From positions 1 through 41,278 of the forward strand of contig CAMCZO010000015.1 in the NCBI GenBank assembly GCA_945887955.1: a stretch of 41,278 nt of DNA. Direction: 5' to 3'. The position numbers were made by a program, and so were the translations under genes. The DNA comes from Chitinophaga pinensis. Lineage in GTDB: Bacteria > Bacteroidota > Bacteroidia > B-17B0 > Aurantibacillaceae. The notes under the pieces were generated by a model. The model was not told where the DNA came from. It saw only the letters and a list, made by a program, of their open reading frames with translations, and did no database searches. Of this stretch, positions 22,566-37,024 are shown one piece after another (position 1 is the first letter of the stretch; each line of letters opens with the position of its first letter).

Positions 22566-22690
22566 ATGAAAAAAATAATTTTATTATTTTTTATTATTTC
22601 ATTTTTTCATTATTGTTTTTTTCTTGACAATCACTCGGTGTTTTGGAAATAGGTTTTAAAATTAAACCATACAAAGCAAAAGCAAATTAA
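22566..22690 (+). pseudogene. Remnant of a secreted-protein gene (start and end joined)
   Basis: An ATG at 22566 opens a strong signal-peptide-like stretch (MKKIILLFFIISFFHYCFFL) that soon stops. In another frame the sequence reads SLGVLEIGFKIKPYKAKAN and stop (ends 22690), which looks like the last beta-strand of a protein. The two parts do not join in frame, so this looks like a gene whose middle was deleted. The C-terminal part is the same sequence as the direct repeat at 26403-26462. Confidence 0.4.
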
Positions 22691-22703
22691 TCAAAAAATT
22701 AAA
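22644..22703 (+). repeat. 60-bp direct repeat, copy 1
   Basis: It is identical to 26403-26462 at 58 of 60 positions; the differences are G/A at the tenth base and C/A at the forty-ninth. Both copies encode KIKPYKAKAN followed by stop in the same frame. Confidence 0.9.
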
Positions 22704-22751
22704 CATCGAATACAATTAATAGAAGTATTTAATTGTTATGTTTGATTAATT

Positions 22752-22877
22752 TATAATCCTGAACAAACTTTATTTTTGGAACAAGCAAAAAAATATGGCG
22801 CTTTAACTATTAATGGATTAAGTATGTTGCAACTTCAGGCAGAAAAAAGTTGGGACATTTGGAACGATAATCACTAG
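22752..22877 (+). pseudogene. aroE: Remnant of shikimate dehydrogenase, 3' end only
   Basis: The frame reads YNPEQTLFLEQAKKYG, then ALTINGLSMLQLQAEKSWDI, then WNDNH and stop. This is the conserved AroE C-terminus (YNP-x-T-x-FL...G...NG...ML..QA..S..IW). The codon before Leu-Ile is a TGA where YD would be expected, and no upstream AroE sequence (NADP-binding domain, catalytic Lys/Asp) is present. It is a short relic of the aromatic amino-acid pathway gene. The functional aroE must lie elsewhere, or be missing. Confidence 0.85.
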
Positions 22878-22886
22878 TTTAATGTG

Positions 22887-22978
22887 TTCTCGATACAAAA
22901 ATTCAAGGAGGCAGAATTTTTAACGAACTGACAAAGTCGCTTCGTTTTATTTGCTTTTTTGCAAATTAATATCGAGAA
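22887..22978. repeat. Hairpin repeat with TTCTCGATA/TATCGAGAA ends, unit 1
   Basis: The 92-bp unit is bounded by perfect 9-bp terminal inverted repeats. It contains GAGGCAGAATTTTT, AACTGACAAAG, TCGCTTCGTTTTATTTGC and the inner hairpin TTTGC-TTTTTT-GCAAA. It resembles the palindromic intergenic repeats common in Bacteroidota. Confidence 0.85.
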
Positions 22979-22996
22979 GTGGTTTTATTATTAAAG

Positions 22997-23095
22997 TTCT
23001 CGATACAAAAAATTAAAGAGGCAAGAATTTTTCACTCGAACTGACAATTCACAGTCGCTTCGTTTTATTTGCTTTTTTGCAAATATTATCGAGAA
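22997..23095. repeat. Hairpin repeat with TTCTCGATA/TATCGAGAA ends, unit 2
   Basis: The 99-bp unit has the same 9-bp terminal inverted repeats and the same inner hairpin as unit 1. It adds CACTCGAACTGACA in the left half. It lies 18 bp after unit 1. Confidence 0.85.
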
Positions 23096-23110
23096 GCGTT
23101 TTTTAATGCG

Positions 23111-23216
23111 TTCTCGATACAAAAAATTCAAAGAGGCAGAATTTTTCACTCGAACAGACAGGTTTTATTGTGCATTGTCGCTTCGTTGTATTTATTTTTT
23201 TAAATATTATCGAGAA
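23111..23216. repeat. Hairpin repeat with TTCTCGATA/TATCGAGAA ends, unit 3
   Basis: The 106-bp unit is the most diverged: the inner TTTGC/GCAAA hairpin is lost and GGTTTTATTGTGCATTG is inserted in the middle. The termini are intact. It lies 15 bp after unit 2. Confidence 0.85.
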
Positions 23217-23247
23217 GTGTGTTTGTTATTATGATCAAGACAACCCA

Positions 23248-23300: not shown

Positions 23301-23891
23301 ATGAAAAAACACATAACCAAACCAAGCGCTATTATTTTTTTAATTTTATTGAGTACAAGTATTTTCGCCAATAAAACGCCTAATTACCCCAAAGGCTTTA
23401 GCCCTAAAACTAAAAGCAGTATTAGCTTTACCGAGAACAAAGGGCAAATACATGATCAAAATTATAAATCACGCCCCGATGTTTTATTTGGTGGCAGCGA
23501 TGGCAATCTTGTTTTTCATTTAAAAAATAATGGCATTTCTTATCAGTTAAATAGAGTAGACACTTGGAAAAAAGAAAGCGATTTAATTAAAAATCATCCT
23601 GATGCTAAAATACAATTTGACGAAAAAAAATTAGTTGCCGACCAAACTACTATTTACCGTTTAGATATTAATTGGTTAAATGCCAATACAAATGCCGAGC
23701 TAATAAAACAAAACCCACTTGATGGCTATAATAATTATTATTTAGAAAATTGCCCAAATGGGGTTTTAAACGTTAAAAGCTACCAACAAATAATTTATCA
23801 AAACATTTATGATGGCATTGATTTAAAATGGTATGAAAAAATTACATTTATAATATCTAAGGGATTACTGCAGTTTACTCTAGACATTTAA
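23301..23891 (+). pseudogene. 3'-truncated DUF7948-type secreted protein gene
   Basis: The 196-residue frame has a signal peptide (residues 1-23) and the typical start of large Bacteroidota surface proteins: ISFTENKGQIHDQN, DVLFGGSDGNLVFHLKNNG, GYNNYYLENCPNGVLNVKSY, then QNIYDGIDLKWYEK at 167-180. In full-length relatives this continues (x-G-x-LxYDF-V-x-PGA) into many repeats and a T9SS sorting domain. Here, from about position 23841, the reading continues with unrelated residues (ITFIISKGLLQFTLDI) and stops. The break marks the left edge of the less AT-rich unit that follows. A short exported product could still be made. Confidence 0.75.
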
Positions 23892-23927
23892 CATTTTTTT
23901 TATATGTTTACACAAAATTTTTGATTC

Positions 23928-25676
23928 ATGAAGATTATTTCCTTTTTAGCACTGTCATTAATTGTTTTTAACCTTGCTTCCCAGAATGTGACAAAAGACA
24001 TGTGGAATGGCTCGGATGGTTGTCCTAAATGCTACGGAGGCTACATTTCAAAAAATAGGTCGTGTGATAATTGTGACGGGAATGGTCAGATAAATTTTGA
24101 AGAGACTTGTCCTATCTGTAAGGGATCACCGGGGCAGTGCCCAATAAATGACGAAAAAAATAGGCTTATGTCAGAATACAAAAGCTGGCTAAAGACCGAA
24201 TGTACCGGAATATGTCATAATTGCCATGGTGACAAGAAAGTCCCAAAAGAATCCGGGGAAAGAAAATGTTCGGCTTGCAAAGGGTCTGGATACTGCAGCA
24301 AGTGTAATGGCCAGGGCCAGGTTTATCAAGTTTCCTGTAAATTTTGCAAAGGTAGTAGGTATTGTCAAAACGACGGGTGTAACATGGGAGAAATAGCTGA
24401 CTTCAAAGATATTAATTGTCCGGATTGCAATGGCACAGGAAAATGTTTGAAAAGATATCCCTCGAACGATAACAAATGCCATGGTACAGGTTCAATAACT
24501 TTTAAAATCCAGAAGAATCCTAAAATCACACAAGCAGATAAAAATGACTTGGCCGAATATGCAGCTCAGCAAATAAAGGAAAGGGGCGAATATGAATTAC
24601 AAATGAAACAGAAATCTAAATTAAACACACTTAAAGCAAAACAAGAAGATGCTAAAAATTTAAGTTTGACAGCAAACCAATTTTTCAATCAAAATAAATA
24701 CAATGAAGCGTTAAATTACTACAACCAATCGTTAAATGCTTTTCCTGATGGTATCATTGAAATCAAAAAACAAATGGTTTTAATTATTCTAGATAGTATC
24801 AAGTTGCTTGATTCGTATTCATTCGATTACCTTGATTTCCCCAAAACAGGCATTGCTGATTTTAGAAAGAATTACAAAACTCAAATATTAAATTACTATG
24901 TGGGCCCCCCTTCCACTTGTAAGGTTACCTTAAGTTGCAATGGAAAAGGGAAATTAGGACTCCAATTGGATGGAATTAGCAATCAACGATTAGCAGATAC
25001 AATTATTGCTAAGCCTTTTAATTACCCCCAACCAGCTGCAAAGTATGGATATTATGTGAATGCAAAAACAACGTTTGATTATCAAATCGAAACAAAAACA
25101 CGTGCCATGAGCGTTACGATTAAAGATGGATGCAGGAAAATAAATGACCAGTCGGTTAACTTATATCAACTTAAACGAATATTACCTGACTCCACAGATG
25201 GCAAATACTTTTTTGATGTTGGAACAATAGCTATAGATGGTATCACAAAAGAAATGGCTCCGCAATTTAAATCTTATAAATCCTGCGGCGGTCCGGGCAC
25301 GGCATTGTTATCCTTACTTGTACCTGGCCTTGGAAAATCCGTGATAACACGTTCGGCAAAAGGATTAGGTACTCTAATACTTACTGGAGGCTTAGGGGTA
25401 GCGGGGCTGGTTTTAAAAAACAAATCCGAAGTGAACTATAGCAATTACATGATTTCTCAAAGTCAAATAGAAATGGATTCAAATTATGAAAAATATAAAA
25501 ACAACATGATAGGTATGAAACTATCTCTTGGCACTGCTGCTGCAATTTGGCTTTTGGATATTTATACTGTTTACCAACAAGGGAAATACAATAAGATGAA
25601 AGAGCGAAGATTAAACCCTTCCTTAACCATTAATCAAAATCAAAAAAGCATCAATCTTGCCATTCAAATCAAATAA
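23928..25676 (+). CDS. Secreted cysteine-rich DnaJ-like zinc-finger protein with TPR-like and C-terminal membrane segments
   Basis: The 582-residue protein has a signal peptide (1-19, ending LASQ). Residues 32-187 carry a long array of DnaJ-type knuckles: CPKCYGGY, CDNCDGNGQ, CPICKGSPGQC, CHNCHGDKK, CSACKGSGYCSKCNGQGQ, CKFCKGSRYC, CPDCNGTGKC and NKCHGTGS. Residues 205-280 are helical, with a TPR-like unit (ANQFFNQNKYNEALNYYNQS). Then comes a beta-rich region (about 325-440). The C-terminus (455-552) has LLSLLVPGLGKSV and two hydrophobic helices, like DUF5683-type proteins. There is no J domain. Zinc binding in the envelope is inferred. A six-base gap separates it from the lipoprotein gene, so they form a unit. 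Base composition is less AT-rich than in the flanking genes, which suggests transfer. Confidence 0.75.
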   Translation: MKIISFLALSLIVFNLASQNVTKDMWNGSDGCPKCYGGYISKNRSCDNCDGNGQINFEETCPICKGSPGQCPINDEKNRLMSEYKSWLKTECTGICHNCHGDKKVPKESGERKCSACKGSGYCSKCNGQGQVYQVSCKFCKGSRYCQNDGCNMGEIADFKDINCPDCNGTGKCLKRYPSNDNKCHGTGSITFKIQKNPKITQADKNDLAEYAAQQIKERGEYELQMKQKSKLNTLKAKQEDAKNLSLTANQFFNQNKYNEALNYYNQSLNAFPDGIIEIKKQMVLIILDSIKLLDSYSFDYLDFPKTGIADFRKNYKTQILNYYVGPPSTCKVTLSCNGKGKLGLQLDGISNQRLADTIIAKPFNYPQPAAKYGYYVNAKTTFDYQIETKTRAMSVTIKDGCRKINDQSVNLYQLKRILPDSTDGKYFFDVGTIAIDGITKEMAPQFKSYKSCGGPGTALLSLLVPGLGKSVITRSAKGLGTLILTGGLGVAGLVLKNKSEVNYSNYMISQSQIEMDSNYEKYKNNMIGMKLSLGTAAAIWLLDIYTVYQQGKYNKMKERRLNPSLTINQNQKSINLAIQIK

Positions 25677-25682
25677 TAAATC

Positions 25683-26210
25683 ATGAAAAAGTACACTATA
25701 TCCTTACTAATTATTTTGTCAATGACTAATTGCACAAAAGAACGTTTAAATAATTTCGACCTCAATGCTAAAAATGGAGCACAGGATACCCGAATCGCTT
25801 TGCAAGAGTTTAAAGTGATAAAAGACGACAATGGCAACGGAATCGTTAATGTAAATGAGACAGCTTACATTCAACTTTTCTTAAAAAATGATGGTCCTGC
25901 TTATGCATCAGAAGTTGTAGTTACATGTATCCCAGAAAACACTCAAGCCTCATTCACAGGTGAAAATAACAATATAAAAGTGGGAGGGGCCAATGTCATA
26001 AGTTCTGCTTCAAAGGATGTTTTGGTTCAGCAATTCACTTCAAACCTTGGTGTGGGTTATACCCTGGTAATTGAGGCTGGGGCCATACCAACTAGTGAAA
26101 AGTTAAGGGTGAAGTTAAGCTATAATGTTAGAAATGTAAATGGATATAACGATTGGTCAGCGCCATCGAATTTAACTCAGGAAAGTACTATTTCAATCCC
26201 GGTTTACTAA
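25683..26210 (+). CDS. Lipoprotein with CARDB/Ig-like domain
   Basis: The 175-residue product has a lipobox (MTNC, Cys at residue 17). A single beta-sandwich domain follows at about 38-175: IALQEFKVIKDDNGNGIVNV, then NETAYIQLFLKNDGPAYASE and VVVTCIPEN. The DDNGNGIVNVNE loop looks like a calcium-binding turn, as in CARDB-type adhesion modules with D-x-N-G-x-G-x-x-N-x-x-E. It starts 6 nt after the cysteine-rich gene and is very likely co-translated with it. The simplest reading is a surface lipoprotein that works with that protein. Function unknown. Confidence 0.75.
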   Translation: MKKYTISLLIILSMTNCTKERLNNFDLNAKNGAQDTRIALQEFKVIKDDNGNGIVNVNETAYIQLFLKNDGPAYASEVVVTCIPENTQASFTGENNNIKVGGANVISSASKDVLVQQFTSNLGVGYTLVIEAGAIPTSEKLRVKLSYNVRNVNGYNDWSAPSNLTQESTISIPVY

Positions 26211-26402
26211 TAAAATCGACGTCACTATTTGCTCCTTCTTCAAACTTTTCGAAAGGCATCTTCATATAGGTGGTCATCATTAGGTTTCGGGACAGTGGTA
26301 TTATTTTTTTTAAATTTCTCATTCAGAGACCCAACTGACGGTGTGTAAGCTTACATATTCTTGGGCCAATTTAAAAGAGAAAATTATTAAATTTAGCTAT
26401 TG
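26211..26402. other. Intergenic stretch with a possible decayed coding remnant on the minus strand
   Basis: This stretch has no intact gene. On the minus strand one frame reads PSVGSLNEKFKKNNTTVPKP then NDDHLYEDAFRK, and a second frame continues FEEGANSDVDF. That looks like one coding segment broken by a frameshift, but I do not recognise it. The plus strand shows only short frames. Confidence 0.3.
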
Positions 26403-26462
26403 TGGAAATAGATTTTAAAATTAAACCATACAAAGCAAAAGCAAATTAATAAAAAAATTAAA
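26403..26462 (+). repeat. 60-bp direct repeat, copy 2
   Basis: It matches 22644-22703 at 58 of 60 positions and is in the same orientation. Here it follows the open stretch RKLLNLAIVEIDF, so it also looks like a gene 3' end. It directly abuts the inverted repeat at 26459-26556. Confidence 0.9.
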
Positions 26463-26556
26463 TTAAGTATCCTTGAAAAGTATAGGGGTGGGGGTACTTA
26501 GTTATTGTATTATAATTAAAAGCTTTTCTACCTTATTTATACCTCAAATTAAATTT
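26459..26556 (-). repeat. Inverted repeat, left copy, next to the photolyase cluster
   Basis: The minus strand here aligns along its whole length with 36095-36178. The 30-bp core 26498-26527 is identical to 36114-36143 in reverse complement. Outside the core the copies differ by a 9-12 bp insertion and scattered changes. Confidence 0.9.
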
Positions 26557-26624: not shown

Positions 26625-27917
26625 TTATTTTAACCACAAATTTCTAAATGTTTTATTTTTGTCATAATCATTTGCTTGCTTCTCAATATTAAAATATCGG
26701 TTACCACGTGGGTCGTTACCAACACCTGCCAAATAAGCCCAATTGCCCCAATTGCTGCAAACATCATAATCTATCAATTGTTGCTCAAAATAAGCAGCAC
26801 CATAACGCCAATCTAATTTTAAATCGTTGCATAAATAGCTGGCTACGTTTTGTCGGCCACGGTTACTCATAAAACCTGTTAGTTTTAATTCTAACATATT
26901 CGCGTCCACAAATTCAACTCCTGTTCTTCCATCTATCCATTGCTGAAGCAACTCCTGATTATGTTCGTTTAAGGTGTCTTTTTTAGTTTGAATACCATGT
27001 TGTAAAAAATATTTATAATTATATTTTTTCATCATAAAACGAAAGTAATCTCTCCATAATAATTCAAACTTTAGCCAATAAGTTGATTCGTTGGCTGAAT
27101 ATAGACTTTCATACTCTTTTAACTGCCTGTAAATTTCTCTCGGCGATAAACAACCCAAAGCTAACCAAGCCGAAAATTTAGTGGAATAATTTTCTCCTAC
27201 CAGGCCATTGCGAGTTTCTTTGTAATTGAAAATATTTTTAGTATCAAAAAAATATGTTTGTATGCGTTTAATGCCTTCTGTTTCGCCACCTCTAAATTTA
27301 ATAGCCGCCCGTTTATCTATTAATACTTTTTGTAAGCCCAATTGCTCTAATAAAGGTAATTTTAAAGCAGAAATAGCGGGCGACTTAATAAAAAGAGGTT
27401 TTTCAAAAATAGGCCGAATGCTTGATTCTTGTTCTACTTTTTTTCTAAATGTGGTAAACACATCTGGTATATCTTTTATCGAGAATGGTAAATCTAATGC
27501 GTGATATAAGGTGCTTGTACTAAATGTTTCAAACTCACAATGAACTTTCCATAATTTTTTTTCTAGTAGTTCTTGTGTAACTTTTTCTTCGTGAGCTACT
27601 TCTCGCTTTGCAAATACTTTTTTAGCGTTATAAACTTGTGCGAGTTTAAAAATTTCTTCCTCGGGCTTACCAATTACTATAATTAATCCAGAACCTTTGG
27701 CGCGCAAACTATTATCTAAATTTTGTAAAGCTTCTAAAATAAATTGTGCTCTAAAGCAGCCTGTTCGTTTAAAACCGAATTCACTTAAATTAAAATGAGC
27801 TTCATCAAAACAGTAAACGGGAACAATTTCTTGACTTTGTTCAATAGCTCTAACTAAAGTTTCGTTATCATGAAGACGCAAATCGGAACTAAACCAAACA
27901 ATAGAAGTTTTTATCAT
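26625..27917 (-). CDS. DASH-type cryptochrome/photolyase
   Basis: The 430-residue flavoprotein has an N-terminal photolyase Rossmann domain (IVWFSSDLRLHDNETLVRAI at 5-24; DASH-like FSTSTLYHALDLPF at about 132-145). Its FAD-binding C-terminal half has GGETEGIKRIQTYF, YSTKFSAWLALGCLSPREIY, FELLWRDYFRFMM and the DASH signature at the end (GVGNDPRGNRYFNIEKQAND). DASH cryptochromes repair UV-induced pyrimidine dimers mainly in single-stranded DNA and may sense blue light; FAD and a folate antenna are usual. It is the last gene of the cluster, and its ATG overlaps the stop of the preceding photolyase-related gene by 4 nt (ATGA). Confidence 0.93.
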   Translation of the reverse strand: MIKTSIVWFSSDLRLHDNETLVRAIEQSQEIVPVYCFDEAHFNLSEFGFKRTGCFRAQFILEALQNLDNSLRAKGSGLIIVIGKPEEEIFKLAQVYNAKKVFAKREVAHEEKVTQELLEKKLWKVHCEFETFSTSTLYHALDLPFSIKDIPDVFTTFRKKVEQESSIRPIFEKPLFIKSPAISALKLPLLEQLGLQKVLIDKRAAIKFRGGETEGIKRIQTYFFDTKNIFNYKETRNGLVGENYSTKFSAWLALGCLSPREIYRQLKEYESLYSANESTYWLKFELLWRDYFRFMMKKYNYKYFLQHGIQTKKDTLNEHNQELLQQWIDGRTGVEFVDANMLELKLTGFMSNRGRQNVASYLCNDLKLDWRYGAAYFEQQLIDYDVCSNWGNWAYLAGVGNDPRGNRYFNIEKQANDYDKNKTFRNLWLK

Positions 27918-29455
27918 AACTCATTTATATGTTTTAAATAATAATCTGCTTGTTCTAACAAGTCTGCTTTAACTTGAGGGTCCATGCGTCTCCAAACATT
28001 ATACATCATACCTATGCGCGGATTTTTTGCTAATTTATTTTCGTGTTTATCATAAAAATTCCAATATAAACTATTAAAAGGGCAAGCTTTATCGCCCACT
28101 TTTTTTGTTTTATTATAATAACAAGATCCACAATAATGACTCATTTTATGAATATACGTGGCAGAACTTACATAGGGTTTAGTGCCCACAATACCGCCAT
28201 CGGCAAACTGGCTCATGCCTCGTGTGTTTGTGATTTGAACCCATTCCAAGGCATCAATGTAAATTCCTAAATACCATCCATCAATTTCGTTAGGATGAAT
28301 TCCTACTAATAAAGCAAAATTTCCTGTAATCATTAATCGTTGTATGTGATGTGCATAACTATATTGCAAAGATTGGTTGATGCTGTGTTTTAAACAACTC
28401 ATTTTTGTTTTGCCTGTCCAAAACCAATCGGGTAATTTATTAGTATGTTCAAAATAATTAAGTGTAGCGTACTCGGGCATTTTGTTCCAATAAATACCGC
28501 GCATGAACTCACGCCAGCCAATAATCTGTCTCACAAAACCTTCCAATTGGTTAAATTCAATTTCTTTGGGACGTTTTTTCCGCTCGGCAATTGCAAGATT
28601 TATAACTTCTAAAGGCGATATCAATTTTGTGTTTAATGAAAATGAAATACGAGAATGGTAAAGCGACCATTCAGAGGGAGTCATCGCATCTTGAAAAGTA
28701 CCAAAAAGCGGTAAACATTCTGATACAAAAAAATGAAGTAACTCTAAAGATTGTTTACGATTTATGGGCCAAATAAAATTTTTAGAATCAATTGTACCAA
28801 TTGTTTTTACAGTTGTTTTTTTTAGTTCGTTGAGTATAGCAGATACATCATTATTAAATAATAATGGAGGTGTTGCTTTATGATCAGAAGGGATTTTTTT
28901 TCTGTTGTCGCTATCATAATTCCATTGTCCGGTTAAGGGCAGCAAGCCATCCATTAGAACATTGTGTTTTTTACGCATGTAGCGATAAAAACTTTCCATT
29001 AAAAAGGTTTTCTTTCCTTTAAAAAAGTCACCTAATTCATTTCTAGTACTTAAAAAATGTTCAGAATCAACAACAGAATGGGTAATTGATAATTGATTTG
29101 CAAAATGTTTTAAAAGTTCATCTAAACGATATTCATCGGGCTGTTGGTATTCAAAATGGGTAAATAAATGTTTTTTTATCAAAAGTTGACAGTTTTTTTC
29201 GAAGCTTTGATAATTAGTCGTGTCGTTTAAATAAATATAAATCACGTTATGCTTCTGTTTTTTTAATTCGCTTGCAAATGCTTGCATGGCAGCAAAAAAA
29301 CCTACTACTTTTTGAATGTGATGCGTGGCATAATCAGTTTCGGTTCGTATTTCCATAAGAACATACGTTAGATTTTCATCCAATTCTTTAAACCATGAAT
29401 GGTTACTATTTAATTGGTCGCCAAGAATAAGCCTTAAAGTTTTATTTACTTTCAT
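27914..29455 (-). CDS. Iron-sulfur photolyase-related protein (prokaryotic 6-4 photolyase type)
   Basis: The 513-residue protein starts LRLILGDQLNSNHSWF, as in the FeS-BCP/PhrB group of deoxyribodipyrimidine photolyase-related proteins. Four cysteines fit the 4Fe-4S site of that group: C354 (KMSCLKHS), C442 and C445 (HYCGSCYY) and C458 (KACPFN). Other family blocks are FVRQIIGWREFMRGIYW and MITGNFALLVGIHPNEIDGW. The best-studied member repairs 6-4 photoproducts with FAD, a lumazine antenna and the cluster. The gene starts 1 nt after the DUF2256 gene and overlaps the DASH gene by 4 nt. Confidence 0.92.
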   Translation of the reverse strand: MKVNKTLRLILGDQLNSNHSWFKELDENLTYVLMEIRTETDYATHHIQKVVGFFAAMQAFASELKKQKHNVIYIYLNDTTNYQSFEKNCQLLIKKHLFTHFEYQQPDEYRLDELLKHFANQLSITHSVVDSEHFLSTRNELGDFFKGKKTFLMESFYRYMRKKHNVLMDGLLPLTGQWNYDSDNRKKIPSDHKATPPLLFNNDVSAILNELKKTTVKTIGTIDSKNFIWPINRKQSLELLHFFVSECLPLFGTFQDAMTPSEWSLYHSRISFSLNTKLISPLEVINLAIAERKKRPKEIEFNQLEGFVRQIIGWREFMRGIYWNKMPEYATLNYFEHTNKLPDWFWTGKTKMSCLKHSINQSLQYSYAHHIQRLMITGNFALLVGIHPNEIDGWYLGIYIDALEWVQITNTRGMSQFADGGIVGTKPYVSSATYIHKMSHYCGSCYYNKTKKVGDKACPFNSLYWNFYDKHENKLAKNPRIGMMYNVWRRMDPQVKADLLEQADYYLKHINEL

Positions 29456-29456
29456 A

Positions 29457-29603
29457 TTACTTTTTTGTTCGTTCGTTTCTGCATCTGTTACTGCAATATT
29501 TTACATCGCTCCAATTCTTTTCCCATTTTTTTCGCCAAGTAAATGGTTTGCTACATGACAAACACAGTTTACTGGGTAAATTTTGTTTTTTAACTCCTTT
29601 CAT
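29457..29603 (-). CDS. DUF2256-type zinc-ribbon miniprotein (48 aa)
   Basis: The short frame reads [48 protein letters not shown]. The pattern CxxC-x2-FxWRKKWx3Wx3KYCSxxCR is the DUF2256 signature: four cysteines in two pairs that should bind one zinc. DUF2256 genes are typical small neighbours of photolyase genes; the function is not known, and DNA contact or protein docking is only a guess. It starts inside the end of a 28-codon frame and ends 1 nt before the ATG of the iron-sulfur photolyase gene, so translation is probably coupled. AAAGGAG occurs just after its ATG, not before it. Confidence 0.9.
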
Positions 29604-29676
29604 AACTAACTTTATTAAAGCCCGCAGATTTAAATAATTTCTGCAGAGTATTATTTAATTGTAAGATATCAATCAT
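29590..29676 (-). CDS. 28-codon overlapping frame between DUF2071 and DUF2256 genes
   Basis: The ATG overlaps the stop codon of the DUF2071 gene (ATGA), and the frame ends 14 nt inside the DUF2256 gene. It reads [20 protein letters not shown] then NKVSYERS, a possible amphipathic helix. It could be a leader for translational coupling or the relic of a longer gene. The tail resembles the L..AGF..V end of methyltransferases. Evidence is only position and overlap. Confidence 0.3.
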
Positions 29677-30386
29677 ATTTTTTCTCTTTTCCAATTTACT
29701 TCCACACCAGAACCCTCAGCAATAAAAACAGAATGAGGTTTAATCGTATTTAAATAACCAAAAGCATTACCATACATAGCTTTAAAATCACAGTTAATAT
29801 CTGATTGCAACACTGTATTTACTTTCCAACTGGGGTGATGAATTTTATATTCCTCTGTTTCTTGTTTGTTTACTTTGGCATAGCCATAATAATGCTCGTA
29901 AATAAATTCTTCTAAACTACCTGCAACGATTGCGTTTGAAGTATTTTTAGCTTCTACGTAAATACGATTCCAATCTTTATTGACTTGCCATTGGTACTCA
30001 ATCTTTTTAAGTTCATTCGTAAAACTCCAGTCGTGTTTAGTGCGAACGGTACTATAACTTTCATTATATAATTTGTTTGCTAAATAAGCCACTATTTTAT
30101 AAGGAACGGTTTCATTAATAAACACAACACCACGTTTAAACACCTCATTATTTTTTCTTTTAACATAAAAACGTAAATTAATTTCTTCAAAAGTTCCGAA
30201 GTAGGGAATGGGTATATTAAACAGCTTTGTGTTTTTAAACATAAAACCAACTAAACTGATGTAGGCATTATTTTCAAATAAGTCTAACTCAATTCCTTTT
30301 GGTAAATAGGGTAATAGCAAACTTTTTGGCACTAGGTAATTGGCCATGATTATATTTTCCCAATTTGCTTTTAAAAAAATTGCCAT
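29673..30386 (-). CDS. DUF2071 (YqjF-like) protein
   Basis: The 237-residue protein has the family start: ANWENIIMANYLVPKSLLLP, then YLPKGIELDLFENNAYISLV, GFMF and FEEINLRFYVKR. Later blocks are GVVFINETVPYKIVAYLANK and EEFIYEHYYGY. DUF2071 proteins have a fold related to acetoacetate decarboxylase, and their substrate is unknown. They recur in Bacteroidota photolyase clusters. The gene is 17 nt after the photolyase gene. Confidence 0.88.
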   Translation of the reverse strand: MAIFLKANWENIIMANYLVPKSLLLPYLPKGIELDLFENNAYISLVGFMFKNTKLFNIPIPYFGTFEEINLRFYVKRKNNEVFKRGVVFINETVPYKIVAYLANKLYNESYSTVRTKHDWSFTNELKKIEYQWQVNKDWNRIYVEAKNTSNAIVAGSLEEFIYEHYYGYAKVNKQETEEYKIHHPSWKVNTVLQSDINCDFKAMYGNAFGYLNTIKPHSVFIAEGSGVEVNWKREKI

Positions 30387-30403
30387 ATTAATTTTTTCAG
30401 TAT

Positions 30404-31900
30404 TTATTTTTTTAATTTTTTTGTTAAATGCGATTTTGGATTACTAACATGTTTTTGTAAAATACGTTTACCCTCCGTTTTTACATCGTCTGTTTTTCTG
30501 AAACTCCAAACAATATCGCTAGCGTATTTGCGCGTTGACTCAATATCTACAATAGGTGCGGGATAATTTTTACCGATTTCGCAGTCATATAATTGTTGAT
30601 CCATCAAACTTAGTTTCCAAGGCTCGTGAATTAAATGTGATGGAATATGTTGTAGTTCTGGAATCCATTGTTTGATAAAAATGCCTTCAGTATCGTGTTC
30701 ATCAGAATTTTTTATGGGGTTATAAATACGAATAGTGTTAATTCCTGTAACACCAGATTGCATTTGTAATTGAGGATAATGGATACCCGGTTCGTAATCT
30801 AAAAACTGCCGTGCTAAAAAATGTAGTTCACGCCAATCTTGCCACAAATTAAATACAAAGAATGAAACAACCATTGCCCGCATTCTAAAATTAATATAAC
30901 CAGTTTCTACTAGGCATCTCATACACGCATCTACAATAGGGACTCCTGTTTGCCCTTGTTGCCATGCTTTTATGTACAATTCGTTTTTAGGTTTAATAAG
31001 TATGTCGTAAGCACGATTAATATTTTCAAACTCCATGCGGCATTCGTCTTCAAATTTTTGAATGAAATGGCAATGCCAATGCAAGCGCGAAATAAAATTA
31101 GTTAAAGCACGTTTGTTTTGTGAATTGCTATAATGTTGCTTTGTGTATTGATAAACCATGCGCATACTAATATTACCATATGCTAAATACGGCGATATGC
31201 GGCTACAAGATTTTCTACTTAAACTGGGTTTTGAAATATTTTTACTGTAATTTATATAACGTTCTTTTATGAAGCTATCCATATATCTCCAAGCCCAGTA
31301 TTCACCTCCATGTTGAAATTTTTTATTGGTTGTGGTTATTTCTGCACTTAACTCTTTACCTTTTAAAGTAATATATAATCCTTCCTCTAATTTTATAATA
31401 TTCCAATTAGTTTCATCAATTATTTTAGGGATTTCGGTCATTTTTTGTTGCCAACGCTCTTCCCACTTAGATCTACTTTTTAGTTTTCGAATAATGCCGT
31501 TGGTTTGAAATTCTTTCCACACAATAGCATTAGATTTAAAAAAAGAGTGCATTAATACATCTCTATCATAACTAATTTTATTTCCAATTTCTTGGTGAGA
31601 GAATACGGTATTAATGGAGAAATATTTGGTTATTTCAGTAAATACATTAATAACTTCATTATGAAAAATAAAGAGTTGTGCATTTATGCCTTTCAATTTT
31701 TCTTGCATATCCTGTAAAGACTGATAAACAAAACGCCAGTGTCTAACATCGCTATCATCATTAGACATTAACGAAGGCTCAAAACAATAAATCAACAAAA
31801 TAGGAATTGATTTTTGTTGTGCGGTGAATAAAGGTTCATGGTCTGTAAAACGCAAATCACGCTTAAACCAAACTATATTAATTTCTGTTTTTTGTGACAA
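30404..31900 (-). CDS. Photolyase/cryptochrome family flavoprotein
   Basis: The 498-residue protein has an N-terminal Rossmann domain ([18 protein letters not shown] at 8-25) and a helical FAD domain: [69 protein letters not shown] and [13 protein letters not shown]. The order and RMR/W-rich blocks are those of photolyases and cryptochromes. The class is distinct from both DASH and the iron-sulfur group. It could be a repair enzyme or a blue-light receptor; I cannot decide from sequence. It is 21 nt downstream of the flavin reductase gene. Confidence 0.88.
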
Positions 31901-36094: not shown

Positions 36095-36178
36095 AAATTT
36101 AAATTTGAGGTACAAAAGCTTTTAATTATAATACAATAACTAACTAACAGCCCCTATTATTTTAATGTTACTTAATTT
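36095..36178 (+). repeat. Inverted repeat, right copy
   Basis: It is the reverse complement match of 26459-26556. The segments AAATTTGAGGTA, the identical 30-bp core (36114-36143), CCCCTAT and TTACTTAATTT occur in the same order in both. The surrounding 35968-36294 holds otherwise only the two promoters of tiny genes. Confidence 0.9.
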
Positions 36179-36479: not shown

Positions 36480-36824
36480 TCAATCCCTCAGGCAACGCAC
36501 AGATAAGCCAAAGACCTTGTATTCGTCTTTCCTGCGCAAATCGCCATCCTCGAGGTTCAAGTTGCGGCCCCAAGCGCAATCAGTATCGAACTCTGATGAA
36601 CTAAACCAGTACCCGTTTTCGCCAATGTCGAAGAATCTCATTTTCCCGTAGCCACGAAAACCGCCCGGAAGCCCTTCAAAGCCAGAAATGTTGGTGCCGT
36701 TGCCATCATCATCCCAGTTTGTTGTGCTTTTCATTTTAGCGCCCGCTTCTTCTTCTCCGCCCAAATTATCGCTTAGTATCGTCCACTCTGCATCTGTTGG
36801 TATGTGGTAGCCTTTTGGAGCCAT
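36480..36824 (-). pseudogene. 5'-truncated FISUMP-domain protein fragment
   Basis: The 114-residue frame is the C-terminal half of a Fibrobacter succinogenes major paralogous (FISUMP) domain: MAPKGYHIPTDAEWTILSDN, KMKSTTNWDDDGNGTNISGF, LPGGFRGYG, NGYWFSSSEFDTDCAWGRNL and the usual end FGLSVRCLRD. Normal proteins have a signal peptide and the first half of the domain; here both are missing and the upstream DNA is unrelated AT-rich sequence. Base composition is much less AT-rich than around it, which suggests a transferred or recombined fragment. FISUMP proteins are surface proteins of unknown function. Confidence 0.75.
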
Positions 36825-36936: not shown

Positions 36937-36950
36937 GTTTATTTTATTTG

Positions 36951-37024
36951 TGATCCCGTAGGGATTCGAACCCCAAACCTCCTCATCCGTAGTGAGGTGC
37001 TCTATCCAGTTGAGCTACGGAACC
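36951..37024 (-). tRNA. tRNA-Arg (anticodon ACG)
   Basis: The minus strand folds as a cloverleaf: acceptor GGTTCCG/CGGGATC (with two G-U pairs), D arm GCTC..GAGC, anticodon stem CCTCA/TGAGG with loop CTACGGA, and T arm GGGGTTCGAATCCC. The anticodon ACG (plus-strand 36988-36990) reads CGN arginine codons after A34 is modified to inosine. The discriminator is A73. CCA is not encoded, consistent with need for the CCA-adding enzyme. Confidence 0.97.

Follow-up and report, generated by a model that had tools for sequence, protein, structure and literature searches.

Two adjacent genes in the window, the whole 41,278-nt stretch of DNA analysed here, code for a cysteine-rich protein of 582 aa and a putative lipoprotein of 175 aa. 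The larger protein joins eight cysteine knuckles to a membrane end, its cysteines are nearly all invariant among homologues, and the two genes recur as a pair that is under purifying selection and bears signs of transfer. We tentatively suggest that the larger protein is an envelope-anchored zinc-knuckle holdase or assembly factor which lacks a J domain and works with its lipoprotein, the two genes forming a horizontally moved module.

The cysteine-knuckle protein and the putative lipoprotein

The two ORFs (23928..25676 and 25683..26210, both on the + strand) were found as described in an earlier note on this DNA, with a gap of 6 nt between them. From its N-terminus, the 582-aa protein comprises a predicted signal peptide (residues 1 to ~19), the knuckle domain (~32-188; 24021..24491, +), a helical, TPR-like segment (~200-290), a beta-rich region (~330-450) and a DUF5683-like membrane end (~455-550), which is followed by a C-terminal beta hairpin (membrane end and hairpin at 25260..25673, +). 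The N-terminal signal was judged by eye, and the hydropathy peaks at residues 1-22, 477-498 and 527-548 would agree with a signal peptide and a pair of membrane helices. The TPR-like unit listed in the earlier note was recovered as a weak match (Pfam, 0.002 in the 582-aa protein and 1e-5 in one homologue).

The count of at least eight DnaJ-type knuckles proved accurate: residues 25-190 contain eight CxxC motifs (at positions 32, 46, 61, 96, 114, 123, 137 and 164), all of which read CxxCxG (8/8) and four of which read CxxCxGxG in full. Upon 20,000 composition-preserving shuffles of these residues, eight CxxC arose in 48 shuffles, and neither eight CxxCxG nor four CxxCxGxG arose in any (0/20,000 each). 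This region holds 22 cysteines in 166 residues, 21 of which are invariant across three homologues, compared with 49 of the 144 other residues (34%). The Pfam domain DnaJ_CXXCXGXG (PF00684) matched residues 123-188 over the whole domain length (2.9e-6, 27.9 bits, below the gathering cut-off of 32.7), and both full-length homologues matched it as well (best 2.3e-6). Since this score lies under the cut-off and the spacing of the knuckles is not that of DnaJ, the term 'DnaJ-type' is best taken as naming a motif rather than the family to which the protein belongs. No J domain (PF00226) was detected by Pfam in the protein or its homologues, in agreement with the earlier note, and the cysteine-knuckle protein had no match to a family whose role in the cytoplasm is defined. 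A sequence search of solved structures gave nothing beyond generic TPRs and a weak match to DnaJ, and AlphaFold modelling based on the three homologues was poor (pLDDT 31.7 and 48.9), the 31.7 model being too poor for zinc sites.

The knuckle protein can be set against several known systems. It shares its CxxCxGxG motifs with the central domain of DnaJ/Hsp40 but differs in its sub-cut-off score, the lack of a J domain with its HPD motif, its probable export and its knuckle spacing. With four or more CxxCx(G)x(G) motifs and the J domain lacking, it displays the features by which J-less DnaJ-like zinc-finger proteins are defined in sequence, as do the plastid proteins BSD2, ZnJ2, ZnJ6, LQY1 and PSA2. 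ZnJ2, which has no J domain, acts as a holdase and hands nothing on to DnaK (PMC5818400). ZnJ6 is associated with the thylakoid, coordinates zinc through cysteine residues and shows both holding and oxidising activity (PMC7865324). LQY1, with two bound zinc ions, is active as a disulfide isomerase (PMC6805722); PSA2 is located in the thylakoid lumen (PMC4806229). ZnJ6 and LQY1 are membrane-associated and PSA2, being lumenal, is topologically outside. Whereas the plastid proteins carry four motifs, the window protein is bacterial, has eight with another spacing, adds the TPR, beta and DUF5683-like parts, and is encoded together with a lipoprotein. Our literature search on exported bacterial CxxCxGxG proteins returned nothing relevant. 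A tandem CxxCxGxGxCxxCxGxG is present on an exported Bacteroidota lipoprotein at locus L011 (G242:C39; 1480-1845, - strand), indicating that exported knuckles are rare but not unique. This protein, another candidate for exported zinc knuckles, is 50% identical over 34 aa to the second half of the window knuckle domain, but it is a stand-alone lipoprotein of 121 aa with four motifs and no TPR, beta region or membrane end. One further match (L005, genome G053) was an ordinary DnaJ and was rejected as a relative.

The 175-aa product of the second gene has a lipobox that, by eye, is weak in the window (MTNC) and better in relatives (FSGC, LQGC). Its putative beta-sandwich-like fold comes from a low-confidence model that contains strands only. 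The earlier note had called it CARDB-like; no CARDB match was found by Pfam in the window lipoprotein or its relatives, which gave only sub-threshold matches to ASH (0.016) and DUF11 (0.007), suggesting only a weak Ig/DUF11-like resemblance and not CARDB. A sequence search of solved structures returned nothing convincing. Two other lipoprotein matches, in G014 (L008) and G047 (L007), were discarded as chance matches or as a beta domain common to a large protease-like protein.

Pairing across genomes and the shared membrane end

Conserved pairing was the earlier note's own test for a two-gene system, and both genes are present at all three full-length loci (the window, L001 and L002, from distantly related genomes), 5-6 nt apart, with the L002 lipoprotein copy interrupted by a contig end. 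The L001 and L002 knuckle proteins are 70% and 56% identical to that of the window. These relatives came from scanning each species through one genome, with a degenerate pattern that finds close relatives only; three knuckle-bearing loci were found in all. No full-length relative was found in the remaining 86 genomes of the window's family, in 394 other genomes of the phylum or in 196 others of the family of genome G481. A profile of the lipoprotein matched in four of the 87 genomes of the window's family, in each case with a membrane-end protein directly upstream on the same strand (4/4). Beyond the three full-length loci, three genomes carry a knuckle-less membrane-end protein with a related lipoprotein downstream; one of them, G037, provides an independent test, as this genome was in the building set of neither profile. 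The partnership goes with the TPR/beta/membrane-end module and not with the cysteine domain. At two loci (L058, 6941-8899, and L059, 7988-9876), a third exported protein follows the knuckle-less pair, the two being alike by eye (CDCNK...). Histidine-kinase and LytTR genes are divergently placed next to the knuckle-less pair of G024, and similar-looking genes are found in G046.

The assignment of the membrane end to a DUF5683-like class stood in part. The 582-aa protein itself gives no direct match to DUF5683 (PF18935), and the likeness is supported through its relatives and by profile comparison: relatives within the membrane-end profile matched PF18935 at 4.4e-5 and 3.1e-4, below the cut-off, and alignment of this profile (A3) with the canonical parB/dapB-linked DUF5683 gave 92% in hhalign. 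Both share the same hairpin signature (SLLVPGLG..., Y..Y and a C-terminal hairpin). Unlike this parB-dapB-linked Bacteroidota membrane protein, the window protein falls short of the reporting limit, has large, probably exported N-terminal domains fused on, and lies in another gene neighbourhood. No functional paper on DUF5683-like proteins was found in the literature searched.

Proteins with other N-termini share this part of the architecture. By profile comparison, residues 249-573 of the 582-aa protein align with a 475-aa protein of G481 whose N-terminus differs (25% identity, 308 columns, hhalign 95.5%), and for residues 410-553 the counterpart is the end of a 761-aa protein of G482 (hhalign 96.4%). 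The part from the TPR through the beta region to the membrane end is thus a reusable chassis on which the knuckle domain is one head among several. Other exported beta-domain proteins adjoin this membrane end: PKD lipoproteins lie upstream at L030, a fibronectin-like lipoprotein lies downstream at L016 and, at ~20 loci, there is a Kelch-like gene directly upstream, confirmed as Kelch by Pfam and with a T9SS tail at L031. The latter arrangement is strongly recurrent: at L031-L055, in ~20 other Bacteroidota genomes, the DUF5683-like gene starts a few nt past the end of the Kelch-like gene. Pairing with an exported beta-domain protein looks like a general habit of the module, with partners that are not homologous throughout and with some members (L061 and L025) devoid of such a neighbour.

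Transfer, selection and surroundings of the pair

Comparison of the window with L001 by blastn yielded a match confined to the pair (23917-26213), which extends from 11 nt before the first ATG to 3 nt past the last stop. Between these hosts, which do not share a family here, the pair is less diverged (pS 0.47-0.54, pN 0.13-0.15) than RuvB (pS 0.67, pN 0.22), suggesting that the two genes were transferred horizontally as a cassette, a reading that is based on three loci. The earlier note had described the pair as less AT-rich than its flanks, and its composition is indeed outlying: its GC3 is 0.33 compared with a host mean of 0.208 (sd 0.042) in a 400-kb sample of genome stretches, and the two genes rank 4 and 5 of 313 host genes. 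At L002 the pair is instead more AT-rich than its neighbours (GC3 ~0.36 versus 0.47-0.56), and at L001 its composition matches the surroundings. Searches for a phage, plasmid or viral origin of the pair gave no matches.

The dN/dS of the two genes between the window and L001 (0.23 and 0.16) points to purifying selection. Apart from its cysteines, the knuckle region changes fastest (52-65% identity versus 68-79% at the membrane end), a pattern that would be expected if a fixed metal or disulfide frame carried an adapting surface.

In the window, the pair sits in a rearranged spot. The DUF7948 gene directly upstream (23301..23891, +) is truncated, as had been noticed earlier, with a Pfam match to positions 1-121 of 214 that ends ~87 nt before the pair (homology ends near 23840). 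The repeats reported around the pair were also recovered: a 63-bp direct repeat flanks it (22641..22703 and 26400..26462, both +, the second copy at 95%) and occurs nowhere else in the genome, and three ~115-bp repeats with ends TTCTCGATA/TATCGAGAA lie upstream (22886..23224, +). We consider the spot rearranged since the segment bounded by the 63-bp repeat holds, besides the truncated DUF7948 gene, a 3′ remnant of aroE (shikimate dehydrogenase; 22749..22878, +; 3fbt, 4.9e-8). At L001, a tRNA-Lys lies ~145 nt downstream of the pair and no convincing direct repeat was found in the flanks, so the two loci have no insertion signature in common in the form of the window's 63-bp repeat.

A 74-bp repeat (26460..26533, +) has a second, inverted copy at 36108-36178 (84%). 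It adjoins both foreign-looking patches of the window, occurs nowhere else in the ~440 kb examined and may mark a recombination habit. The other patch is a truncated ORF with a Fib_succ_major domain (36480-36824, - strand; GC 0.49, GC3 0.53, genome average ~0.31), which adjoins a tRNA-Arg (36950-37024). Between the patches, photolyase genes cluster in a row (26625-31900, - strand), coding for CRY-DASH, a photolyase-related DPRP protein, DUF2071 and a further photolyase.

Possible functions of the pair

For a holdase or assembly factor, the signal peptide would export the knuckle protein and the DUF5683-like end would hold it in the membrane, thereby placing the knuckle domain, TPR and beta region outside the cytoplasm. 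As the J domain is absent, DnaK would not be recruited. The knuckle domain may bind unfolded or cysteine-containing clients, acting as a holdase or a thiol-dependent assembly factor like the plastid J-less zinc fingers; at the outer membrane or surface, the lipoprotein would serve it as partner or client. The knuckle spacing unlike that of DnaJ and the sub-cut-off Pfam score argue against a holdase, and the cysteines could be paired in disulfides instead of ligating zinc, given an oxidising periplasm. Since knuckle-less relatives keep the lipoprotein, its role may be tied to the membrane-end module instead of the knuckles. A wider proposal, which we regard as rather doubtful, is that the pair is a mobile envelope chaperone or assembly system independent of ATP and Hsp70, in which an exported J-less eight-knuckle protein and its dedicated lipoprotein represent one branch of an undescribed DUF5683-like class whose members vary in their heads and each pair with an exported beta-domain protein. 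Most known knuckles of DnaJ type come from the cytosol and from plastids. A conserved bacterial form located outside the cytoplasm and travelling among distant hosts with a single fixed partner would indicate that folding, assembly or sensing in the Bacteroidota envelope includes a step independent of ATP. One membrane end with changing heads and changing surface partners would also offer a route to the function of DUF5683-like proteins.

Retention of the same partner by knuckle-less relatives makes it about as likely as a holdase, and possible to the same tentative degree, that the protein acts as an all-purpose anchor in the envelope and, as a scaffold for surface structures or adhesion, organises or displays its beta-domain partner. 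The knuckles would then be one exchangeable head for recognition, kept stable by zinc or disulfides and devoid of chaperone activity. The different N-termini carried by the membrane end (L061, L016) and its varied exported neighbours, be they Ig/DUF11-like, fibronectin-like (L016) or PKD (L030) lipoproteins or the Kelch propeller (L031, with ~20 similar-looking loci), are consistent with such an anchor. Against it stand the lack of any adhesin-type domain in the pair, as far as found, and the purely putative surface location of either protein. Caspase-like genes near two membrane-end relatives (L061, L066) suggest a different role, that of a mobile conflict or stress module for defence, competition or regulated cell death, whose knuckles would sense redox state or zinc. 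The patchy distribution and mobility of the pair would agree with it, as would the two-component kinase/regulator adjoining the G024 relative and the similar-looking genes adjoining that of G046. We consider it unlikely, given that PADLOC gave no match up to E 0.1, that no phage, plasmid or viral match was obtained, that both proteins lack nuclease, toxin and effector domains, and that housekeeping genes surround the pair in the window and L001.

The density of nearly invariant cysteines (22 in 166 residues) would also suit a metal-handling pair, in which zinc or other thiophilic metals of the envelope are buffered or sensed by the knuckles, with the lipoprotein relaying the signal. This is quite improbable, as structural knuckles hold zinc tightly and make poor buffers, and no metal transporter, efflux or metal-regulator gene was recognised beside the pair at any of the three full-length loci. 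Finally, the broken genes in the repeat-bounded segment (the aroE remnant and the truncated DUF7948 gene) could make the pair a decaying or accidental passenger of a repeat-rich spot. This last reading is highly improbable and largely refuted: both frames are intact, dN/dS is 0.16-0.23, the cysteines are invariant, and three hosts share the gene order and spacing.
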